Shown in pieces: positions 14,881 through 16,777 of a DNA stretch of 64,000 nt. The position numbers and the translations under genes were made by a program. This DNA is from Plantactinospora endophytica. Its GTDB lineage: Bacteria > Actinomycetota > Actinomycetes > Mycobacteriales > Micromonosporaceae. The stretch spans positions 186,001 to 250,000 of the forward strand of contig NZ_BONW01000021.1 in the NCBI RefSeq assembly GCF_016862915.1, read 5' to 3'. Position 1 is the first letter of the stretch, and each line of letters begins with the position of its first letter. The notes under the pieces were generated by a model. That model did not search any database and was not told where the DNA came from. It saw only the letters and a list, made by a program, of their open reading frames with translations.

Positions 14881-15006
14881 ATGGCCCCATCGGTACGACT
14901 GCGCCCGGTCCGCGAGCCCGACCTGGCGATGTTCCGGCGACCCGTCCCCGTGGTGAGGATCCCGGACGCGTGGCGACCGGCGGTGTTGCTAAGCTGCGCC
15001 CCATGA
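14881..15006 (+). pseudogene. N-terminal relic of a GNAT acetyltransferase
   Basis: A strong GGAGGAGACG ribosome-binding site precedes ATG 14881. The first 18 codons (MAPSVRLRPVREPDLAMF) match the opening strand and helix of GNAT acetyltransferases. The frame then becomes unrelated and stops after 41 codons, overlapping the next ATG (CCATGA). I read this as a gene cut by deletion, whose start signals survive, fused to the promoter region of the downstream methyltransferase. A functional 41-residue peptide cannot be excluded. Confidence 0.55.
14990..14995 (+). promoter_or_regulatory. Leaderless -10 element TAAGCT of the Phe leader peptide
   Basis: TAAGCT lies 7 bases before ATG 15003, so transcription would start at or next to the leader ATG. 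No good -35 is visible 16-18 bases upstream. Confidence 0.5.
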
Positions 15007-15026
15007 ACTTCTTCTTCCTCGCCTGA
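15003..15026 (+). CDS. Putative Phe-rich leader peptide MNFFFLA
   Basis: ATG AAC TTC TTC TTC CTC GCC TGA encodes seven residues with three consecutive Phe codons. Runs of one amino acid in a tiny ORF at the transcript 5' end are the hallmark of ribosome-mediated attenuation. The position directly downstream of a TAAGCT -10 box fits a leaderless start. Two stable hairpins and then the ribosome-binding site for the next ORF follow. Expression of the peptide is inferred. Confidence 0.5.
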   Translation: MNFFFLA

Positions 15027-15111
15027 CGCGACCGCTGGCGGGTTGCGGACAACCCCTCGCCAGCGATGCGGGGCGGCGACGCGTCGCCCCGAGTCGCGAC
15101 GTGGGAGAAGA
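15010..15111 (+). promoter_or_regulatory. Candidate translational attenuator: Phe codons pair with a downstream ribosome-binding site
   Basis: The Phe-codon stretch TCTTCTTCC (15010-15018) can form nine contiguous pairs, one of them G-U, with GGGAGAAGA (15103-15111), the Shine-Dalgarno of the short ORF at 15116. Between them lie hairpin 1 (GCTGGCG 15034-15040 with CGCCAGC 15058-15064, inner GGTTG/CAACC) and hairpin 2 (the perfect palindrome at 15075-15088). A ribosome stalled on the Phe codons would block the long-range helix and free the ribosome-binding site. Folding was judged by eye; regulation is a hypothesis. Confidence 0.4.
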
Positions 15112-15115
15112 TCGG

Positions 15116-15187
15116 ATGATCTTTCGGTTGCCGGTGCGTACGCGCGCCGGGGCCACACCGCGTCCTGGCACCGTCGTCGCGTCGTGA
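15116..15187 (+). CDS. Short ORF translationally coupled to the tRNA methyltransferase
   Basis: ATG 15116 is 5 bases after GGGAGAAG, an ideal ribosome-binding site. The 23-codon frame (MIFRLPVRTRAGATPRPGTV...) ends in TGA that overlaps the methyltransferase GTG as GTGA. The methyltransferase GTG has no ribosome-binding site of its own, so this ORF may deliver ribosomes to it. The peptide itself resembles nothing I know and may matter only for being translated. Confidence 0.5.
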   Translation: MIFRLPVRTRAGATPRPGTVVAS

Positions 15188-16242
15188 CGGCCGCGCGCCT
15201 GCTGGCGCGTACGGTGCGGGGCATCGAGCCGGTGGTGGCCGACGAGATTGCAACACTGGGACTGGGTCGGATCGGTGGTGTCGGGCACCGCGAGGTGTGG
15301 TTCGATGCCGACGATCCCGGCCCGGAGATATTGGAGCTGCGCTGCGCCGACGACGTGTTCCTGGTCGGCACGGTGGTGTACGGGATCGGCCGGGGTCGGG
15401 CCGACCTGCGGATGCTGGGCAAGGCCGCCACGGCACTGCCGCTGTCGGAACTGCTGGCCGGGTGGCGCCGCTGCGGTGGTGACCGCCCGATCTCCGGTGT
15501 CGACGTGTCGGCGTCGTTCCTCGGGCGGCGCAACTACACCCGGTACGACCTGGAGGACGTGGTCGGCGAGCCGCTCGCCGCCGCGCTCGGGTTGCCGTAC
15601 CACAGTCGGCGGGACGGGGTGGCGCCACCGCCGGGTGGACTGTCCTGGCGGGTCACCGTCGTCGACGACCGGGCCCTGGTGGCGTTACGGATCGCCGACC
15701 GGCCGCTGCACCGCCGGGCGTACCGTCGGATGTCCCGGCCGGGCAGCCTGCACCCGCCGGTGGCCGCCGCGCTGGTCCGGCTCGCCGGGCCGCGCGACCG
15801 CGATCTGCTCCTCGACCCGTGCTGCGGGGCCGGGACGATCCCCATGGAGGCGGCCTCCGGTCGCACACTGTCCATCGTGGGCAGTGACATCGACCGGCGG
15901 GTGGTGGCGATCGCCGCCGACAACGGCGGGGACACCCCGATCGACTGGCTGGTGGCGGATGCCGGCCGGATTCCGCTGCCTGACGGGATGGTCGACCTGG
16001 TGGTCACCAACCCGCCGTGGAACCGGCAGGTGCCGTTCGCCGGGATCCTGCGTCAGCGGCGGTACCGGTTCTGGGTGGAACTGCGCCGGGTGTTGCGGCC
16101 GGGTGGCCGGGCGGTGCTGCTCGTCTCCGATGTGGACGGTCAGGTGCCCGATGCTGCGGCGGCCGGACTGACGGTGCGGGGGCGCCACCCGATCAGCCTC
16201 TCGGGCAGCCACCCGGAGATCGTCGTCCTGCGGGCGCGATAG
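15184..16242 (+). CDS. THUMP-domain tRNA guanine-N2 methyltransferase (TrmN/Trm14-like)
   Basis: A 352-residue SAM-dependent RNA methyltransferase. The N-terminal half (TVRGIEPVVADEI, then RNYTRYDLEDVVGEPLAAAL) matches the THUMP/ferredoxin-like RNA-binding region. HRRAYRRMSRPGSLHPPVAAAL leads into SAM motif I (Asp211-PCCGAGTIP) and the catalytic TNPPWN (NPPW at residues 276-279). The closest known activities are TrmN/Trm14 (m2G6 in tRNA) and the related RlmKL domains; family knowledge places TrmN activity on tRNA-Phe in Thermus. The GTG start overlaps the short ORF stop. Exact target unproven. Confidence 0.85.
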   Translation: MTAARLLARTVRGIEPVVADEIATLGLGRIGGVGHREVWFDADDPGPEILELRCADDVFLVGTVVYGIGRGRADLRMLGKAATALPLSELLAGWRRCGGDRPISGVDVSASFLGRRNYTRYDLEDVVGEPLAAALGLPYHSRRDGVAPPPGGLSWRVTVVDDRALVALRIADRPLHRRAYRRMSRPGSLHPPVAAALVRLAGPRDRDLLLDPCCGAGTIPMEAASGRTLSIVGSDIDRRVVAIAADNGGDTPIDWLVADAGRIPLPDGMVDLVVTNPPWNRQVPFAGILRQRRYRFWVELRRVLRPGGRAVLLVSDVDGQVPDAAAAGLTVRGRHPISLSGSHPEIVVLRAR

Positions 16243-16246
16243 CCGG

Positions 16247-16291
16247 CTGCCGGCGTGGCGGTTCCGATGGCCGGATTCGCCACGCCGGCAG
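16247..16291 (+). terminator. Perfect 14-bp hairpin after the methyltransferase
   Basis: CTGCCGGCGTGGCG (16247-16260) and its exact reverse complement (16278-16291) flank a 17-base loop, 4 bases after the stop codon. The right arm runs into the first 21-bp tandem repeat. Confidence 0.75.
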
Positions 16292-16367
16292 TGCCAGAGA
16301 CGACGCCGGCAGTGCCAGAGACGACGCGGGCAGTGCCAGAGACGATGCCGGCAACATCAGAGCAGAC
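16284..16367. repeat. Four tandem 21-bp repeats
   Basis: The unit GCCGGCAGTGCCAGAGACGAC starts at 16284 and 16305. Copy 3 (16326) has one change, copy 4 (16347) is degenerate. The array lies between the convergent methyltransferase and doc genes. A unit length divisible by 3 lets open frames read through (PAVPETT or ARDDAGS heptads), but I see no gene signals. Confidence 0.75.
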
Positions 16368-16399: not shown

Positions 16400-16777
16400 T
16401 CAGAGGTACAGCTTCCGAAGCTCTCGGGCGATGTCGCCGACCTCGGTCGTCGCGCCGCTCGCCACCGACATCACCAGAGCTTCGGCCTGGTCCACGTCGA
16501 CGTCCCGCAACGGTACGTCGTTGAGCGCGAGGAAGATCCGGGCGCCGGCCCAGGCGAGCCGCTTGTTCCCGTCGATGAGCGCGTGGTTCATGCAGATCGA
16601 GTGCAGCAGCGCGGCGGCCTTCGCCCACAGGTCCGGGTACGCCTCCTGCCCGAACGCCACCGTGGCCGGGCGGACCACCGCCGACGAGAGCAGACCCGGG
16701 TCACGCACCTGCGGCGGCTCGGCCAGCACGACCGAGGCGATCTCCATCAGGTCGTCGACGTCGAGGTAGACGATCAC
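16400..16777 (-). CDS. doc: Doc (death-on-curing) family toxin
   Basis: A 125-residue Fic/Doc-fold protein with the Doc active-site motif His65-ALI-Asp69-GNKR in NHALIDGNKRLAWAG. Doc toxins phosphorylate elongation factor Tu and stop translation; Fic relatives transfer AMP instead. The short length, GNKR ending and N terminus MIVYLDVDDL fit Doc. The GTG start overlaps the antitoxin stop as GTGA, the usual coupled antitoxin-toxin order. Activity is inferred from the intact motif. Confidence 0.9.
   Translation of the reverse strand: MIVYLDVDDLMEIASVVLAEPPQVRDPGLLSSAVVRPATVAFGQEAYPDLWAKAAALLHSICMNHALIDGNKRLAWAGARIFLALNDVPLRDVDVDQAEALVMSVASGATTEVGDIARELRKLYL

Follow-up and report, generated by a model that had tools for sequence, protein, structure and literature searches.

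Within the window, by which we mean the whole stretch of 64,000 nucleotides from Plantactinospora endophytica that was analysed, a methyltransferase gene (15184..16242) is preceded by a compact series of elements, all on the + strand. TAAGCT, a −10 hexamer of the leaderless promoter type (14990..14995), lies 7 nt upstream of the ATG of a leader ORF that encodes MNFFFLA and a stop codon (15003..15026). Between the leader and the methyltransferase gene are hairpin 1 (15033..15065, arms 15033-15039 and 15059-15065), hairpin 2 (15069..15091, arms 15069-15077 and 15083-15091) and the Shine-Dalgarno (SD) region GGGAGAAGA (15103..15111), whose core GGGAGA begins at 15103. The SD is followed by a 23-codon mini-cistron with a PRPG motif (15116..15187), the TGA of which overlaps the methyltransferase GTG at 15184. 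An earlier note on this DNA had listed the hexamer, the MNFFFLA ORF, the SD and the overlapping short ORF, and each of these can be read directly where it was placed.

The surroundings of this element have features of their own. By eye, the ORF at 14881-15006 looks like a remnant of a GNAT-like gene; locus L007 has a longer frame matching it at the same place, of which the window retains the first residues only. On the other side of the methyltransferase gene, a Fic/Doc family gene is found at 16400-16777 on the − strand (Pfam E 3.5e-14), and the frame adjoining it ends, by eye, like a ribbon-helix-helix antitoxin, so the two are perhaps a toxin-antitoxin pair. Short tandem repeats of the type gcagtgccagagacgac were noticed by eye at approximately 16283-16348, between the methyltransferase and Doc genes.

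The methyltransferase contains a UPF0020 methyltransferase domain according to Pfam. Its AlphaFold model (pLDDT 93.8) has TrmN (PDB code 3TMA) and Trm14 (PDB code 3TM5) as best Foldseek matches. The earlier note had described it as a TrmN/Trm14-like THUMP methyltransferase, which is right for the fold and not for the rest: at E 0.001 the Pfam search turned up no THUMP family, and by score EmtA is the named family closest to the enzyme. The best NCBIfam model is that of the orthosomycin-resistance protein EmtA (NF033398), with 115 bits, far below its cut-off of 625, and archaeal Trm14 comes second with 72 bits, under its cut-off of 280. BLASTP aligned the enzyme over its full length with the plasmid-borne EmtA of Enterococcus faecium (135 bits, 29% identity), and TrmN 3TMA scored 67 bits by phmmer, on a scale that differs from that of BLASTP, with 29% identity in the fold alignment. 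Taking profile searches, BLASTP, fold match and the enzyme tree together, 23S rRNA is probably the target; since the fold is that of TrmN and Trm14, a tRNA may be the target instead. The gene is accessory, being found in 28 of 354 genomes of the family at E 1e-20 and having no match in the other 326. A role in anti-phage defence was considered and rejected, as PADLOC gave weak methyltransferase-domain matches only.

The arrangement seen in the window recurs in relatives. From GTDB genomes we compared the best 80 of 211 relatives; a leaderless mini-ORF is present at the matching place in 69 of these 80 loci. We also applied a strict detector, which demanded TANNNT, a spacing of 6-8 nt, a start codon, 5-13 codons and an aromatic run of at least 2: it was positive in 64/80 homologous upstream regions (likewise the best 80 of 211 relatives), and in none of 4000 dinucleotide shuffles, and all 1455 windows taken from elsewhere in these loci were negative. 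The observation made in the window is thus confirmed as real, and the leader is strongly conserved, beyond chance. Leader, two hairpins and SD upstream of the methyltransferase are common to dozens of soil actinomycetes, and of the 28 gene-carrying genomes of the family, 17 have the leader. Searches of Rfam returned no match at gathering scores for the window and nine other loci, and none at E 1 for 14950-15250.

For further comparison we assembled 98 loci with a leader, which gave 87 distinct elements after identical ones were dropped, with 65 different peptides. TANNNT lies 6-8 nt upstream of the start in 86/87 of these, a count to be read with the knowledge that the detector behind it itself demanded the hexamer, allowing 4-9 nt, and that L127 was admitted without one. 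The leaders are 6-11 codons long and share a consensus before the stop codon, FF-x-[L/R]-[R], at a fixed distance from it. Counting from the stop, Phe is found at −5 in 81/87 and at −4 in 84/87, L or R at −2 in 81/87, and R at −1 in 60/87; the leader of the window, MNFFFLA, ends in A rather than R. The number of Phe codons is variable: one leader has 1, 19 have 2, 50 have 3 and 17 have 4, and the longest Phe run is 1 in 5/87. L070 has a single Phe (MMFTRR), and the runs of L087 (MTFNFRR), L047 (VFMNFRRR) and L054 and L081 (both MTFFYLR) are broken or shortened. The leaders lacking FF altogether are MMFTRR, MTFNFRR, VFMNFRRR, MNFAFSFHLR and MTFAFSFHLR. A Phe attenuator would have a run of the regulatory codon conserved in all relatives, and no run common to all 87 leaders was seen. 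The conserved Leu and Arg are encoded by synonymous codons (CTC 40 and CTG 18; CGC 38 and CGT 21). An arrest peptide therefore fits these leaders better than a counter of Phe codons does: the number of Phe varies, L/R-R is conserved, and the Leu and Arg codons change synonymously.

Folded at minimum energy, 15003-15220 (−122.4 kcal/mol, z −3.5; 2/200 shuffles as good) contains a nine-pair helix between 15010-15018 and 15103-15111, in which the Phe codons pair with the SD as the earlier note had proposed, and pairing of the SD to leader codons is predicted for 80 of the 87 elements. Both hairpins, which that note had wished to see conserved, are kept and covary. In an alignment of 79 elements, both-side changes occur in 10/16 pairs: hairpin 1 has 99.1% of cells paired and such changes in 5/7 pairs, and hairpin 2 has 98.2% of cells paired and such changes in 5/9. 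The window sequence has no U-run after the hairpins, so control looks translational.

Covariation of the leader:SD helix was not found by either of two tests (867/5000 permutations as good), and the search for compensatory changes in the 15010/15103 helix, which had been suggested as a check, came to one cell with both sides changed, which shuffles equal. The leader:SD duplex has a mean of −14.1 kcal/mol, compared with −7.1 for random codons and −13.8 for synonymous recodings of the leader. The complementarity is thus a consequence of TTC codons facing a purine SD, and the caution that CT-rich codons pair with purine-rich sites easily by chance was well placed. The effect of a ribosome on the leader was modelled by holding the leader ORF unpaired. 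Across the 87 elements, the mean unpaired probability of the SD rose from 0.11 to 0.46, compared with 0.12 when a stretch of equal length in hairpin 1 was blocked instead. The modelled gain is at least 0.3 in 43/87 elements and below 0.3 in 44/87, and for the window element SD accessibility goes from 0.00 to 0.26. In these models, release of the SD by leader occupancy is supported on average, and weakly for the window element.

The SD of the leader genes has a composition of its own: GAGAAG or GAAGAA is present in 66/87 leader genes and in 0/13 genes tested from a leader-free clade of 18 genes (see below). Its pairing with the anti-SD is weaker than in that clade (−6.9 versus −9.7), a comparison biased by the SD window of the leader-free genes having been chosen for anti-SD pairing. 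Judged by sequence, the SD of leader genes looks shaped for pairing with the leader. It serves a mini-cistron of 14-23 codons in 39/87 elements, all 39 of which contain R[PS][GSDR], and in 37/39 the end of the mini-cistron and the beginning of the methyltransferase gene share 4 nt. In 46/87 elements the SD opens a frame that continues into the methyltransferase, and 2/87 are ambiguous. For the Arg of the mini-cistron PRP(G/S), CGT is the codon in most cases, seemingly an unusual choice in GC-rich genomes, and by eye the PRP(G/S) block is similar to the 3′ arm of hairpin 2 and might compete with that hairpin. We also considered, and rejected, that the PRPG block pairs with the strand upstream of the SD: swapped pairs were as good in 4788/5000 permutations.

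Searching 394 genomes of the class with a covariance model of the leader gave 13 matches, 12 of them directly upstream of the methyltransferase. The thirteenth is partial (model positions 30-89, E 5e-5) and lies within a frame that by eye resembles a regulator gene. Of the 12 true matches, 11 had served in training or are identical to sequences that had, and scoring was confined, under strict filters, to eight candidates per genome, so this search is weak evidence of specificity; within these 394 genomes and eight candidates each, a close copy of the leader was not seen before any other gene. The 594 bases upstream of E. faecium emtA contain 21 ORFs of 4-24 codons, three of which have two adjacent aromatic residues and none of which has the motif before its stop. 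By eye, this region (L032, around 1425-1470) has a terminator-like hairpin and a T-run inside a 24-codon ORF, which hints at a different, transcriptional control.

A tree of 113 enzymes, quickly built by maximum likelihood and weak at several inner forks, has EmtA as a long outgroup branch and unites 18 leader-free genes, including the copies from everninomicin clusters, in one clade (SH-aLRT 100). The state of the leader changes 4 times on this tree, compared with 22 times in shuffles. Going by the sequences, the simplest history would be that the clade that holds the cluster copies lost the leader once. Five further rows without a leader fall outside the clade: L018 and the distant L023, L025, L128 and L129. 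L018 (G118; compared with L030) is a second methyltransferase copy in one genome, its leader cut off, with what by eye is a transposase-like frame directly upstream.

Members of the family occur inside orthosomycin biosynthetic clusters, which is true of the sister clade and not of the window gene. The G241 relative lies approximately 20 kb from a protein matching the nitrososynthase 3MXL (860 bits), and the frames adjoining it resemble, by eye, genes for a polyketide synthase and for a KAS III-type enzyme. Its methyltransferase is the same gene as that of L052 (Micromonospora sp. ATCC 39149), at tree distance zero. A review credits the evernimicin cluster, tied by its reference to M. carbonacea var. 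africana ATCC39149, with two 23S rRNA methyltransferase genes (PMC6804068), of which this gene may be one. The G155 relative lies approximately 16 kb from a protein matching EvdO1 (PDB code 4XBZ, 728 bits), and the flanks of the Catenuloplanes locus L046 encode relatives of several genes of the G155 cluster.

We searched for EvdO1 in the genomes of 50 of the 80 named loci, 11 leader-free and 39 with the leader. Strong orthologs were found in 3/11 leader-free genomes (L046, L052 and L063) and in 0/39 leader genomes, one of which, L066, has a weak 33% match. At 1e-20, 8/11 named leader-free genomes had no match, and the genome of the window gene itself had none at 1e-5. The 3 kb flanks of the Streptomyces curacoi locus (L063) contain no cluster gene. 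A SpoU-type methyltransferase gene adjoins the EmtA-like gene in L045, L046, L114 and L134, and the best PDB match of the SpoU-type copies of L045 and L134 is 1X7O, which we take to be AviRb. The site of everninomicin is described in PMC10338323 as hairpins 89 and 91 of 23S rRNA.

We consider it probable that the element is a drug-inducible translational attenuator of the erm/cat type, in which an orthosomycin-like drug would stall the ribosome on the leader and so free the SD; the dependence of the stalling on a drug is what we infer. Transcription would start at or beside the A of the ATG at 15003, judging by the spacing of the −10 hexamer. With no drug, a ribosome would complete MNFFFLA fast and depart, and the freed Phe codons would pair with the SD at 15103-15111, so that neither the mini-cistron nor the methyltransferase coupled to it would be expressed. 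If an antibiotic of the orthosomycin type were bound at helices 89/91, the ribosome would instead be arrested within FF-x-L/R-R and cover the Phe codons, which would free the SD, and the enzyme then produced would methylate 23S rRNA. The scheme presumes use of the promoter and translation of the leader, as well as drug-dependent arrest, this class of drug and an rRNA target. More tentatively, and with some doubt, the elements may constitute a family of actinomycete attenuators so far undescribed, in which the arrest codons themselves are the anti-SD strand, so that one stretch would both sense an orthosomycin-like drug and lock the gene; their spread in many apparent non-producers would then mark exposure in soil to orthosomycins or to a drug acting at the same site.

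The earlier note had cast the same parts in a different way: scarce or under-modified tRNA-Phe would stall the leader and induce a TrmN that modifies tRNA-Phe. Its view that a leader gates the methyltransferase through pairing of leader codons with the SD probably stands, the leader being conserved and the pairing predicted in most folds. That pairing, the 2-4 Phe codons in 86/87 leaders and the relation of the enzyme to TrmN in fold and sequence are also what its tRNA-Phe reading would lead one to expect, but a signal from tRNA-Phe agrees poorly with a single-Phe leader, with Phe runs broken or shortened elsewhere, and with conservation of the following L/R and R through synonymous changes. 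Methylation of tRNA-Phe as the output is likewise at odds with a sporadic gene that most family genomes lack at 1e-20, with the top score of EmtA, and with related copies of the sister clade in everninomicin clusters. We give this reading hardly any credence. It is also very improbable that the leader has no sensing role, with its structure merely lowering expression or the leader serving reinitiation. Such a leader would account for a leader:SD helix that does not covary and for a window SD that occupancy frees only partly in the model, but not for conservation at the level of the peptide with synonymous change, for a motif at a fixed distance from the stop, or for absence of the leader from the clade with the cluster copies.

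A third possibility keeps the attenuator and replaces the orthosomycin as arrest signal by another ribosome-targeting drug or a molecule of the host. EmtA is a distant relative only, and most of the named leader-free genomes tested (8/11) gave no EvdO1 match, both of which favour such a signal; yet no drug context other than everninomicin clusters was found for the family, and the gene lies near the SpoU-type enzyme, with 1X7O as best PDB match, in L045, L046 and L114. We therefore regard another signal as unlikely and prefer an orthosomycin-like drug. If this is true, many soil actinomycetes carry an inducible element that both senses orthosomycins and locks the gene. This class of drugs has a site to itself on the ribosome, and the methyltransferase under control would be one that fold-based annotation would label a tRNA enzyme. 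FF-x-L/R-R would be a directly testable arrest motif, and the element a natural reporter for orthosomycins. There would also be a clean evolutionary contrast, as the leader is present in most of the copies examined and in none of the clade that includes the producers' own clusters.

Work by Mangano et al. in Nat Chem Biol in 2022 is said to have found that orthosomycins arrest ribosomes at specific sequences, and in various bacteria this arrest is reportedly put to use by a regulatory ORF that precedes a gene for orthosomycin resistance. The present leader may already have been described there; our search of other literature returned no recognisable description of it. PMC10219788 cites Mangano 2022 as one of the works in which manual inspection brought functional upstream ORFs to light.

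Several known systems resemble parts of the element. The enzyme shares its closest solved folds, 3TMA and 3TM5, with the TrmN/Trm14 tRNA m2G6 methyltransferases, but the archaeal Trm14 model scores below EmtA (72 versus 115 bits) and the gene is sporadic. With EmtA, a 23S rRNA G2470 methyltransferase, it has in common the best NCBIfam model and a full-length alignment at 29% identity; it differs in scoring far below the equivalog cut-off, and the region upstream of E. faecium emtA has no ORF with the motif. The leaders of pheA and pheST are Phe-codon attenuators that act on transcription terminators before Phe genes. A run of Phe codons in a short leader is common to these and the present element, which differs in having no U-run after its hairpins and in regulating a methyltransferase. 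Drug-sensing leaders before rRNA methyltransferases are an already known kind, and cat attenuators share the scheme of leader peptide, drug stalling and hidden SD. In ermCL-ermC this scheme comprises a leader peptide, a drug-stalled ribosome, a hidden SD and a methyltransferase that protects the ribosome (PMC13410324, PMC10219788). The element described here is like erm and cat in its leader peptide and hidden SD, and presumably in its stalling, and like ermC in its methyltransferase; it differs from them in its leaderless start, its peptide of 6-11 codons, its two further conserved hairpins and its use of the leader codons themselves as the anti-SD strand.
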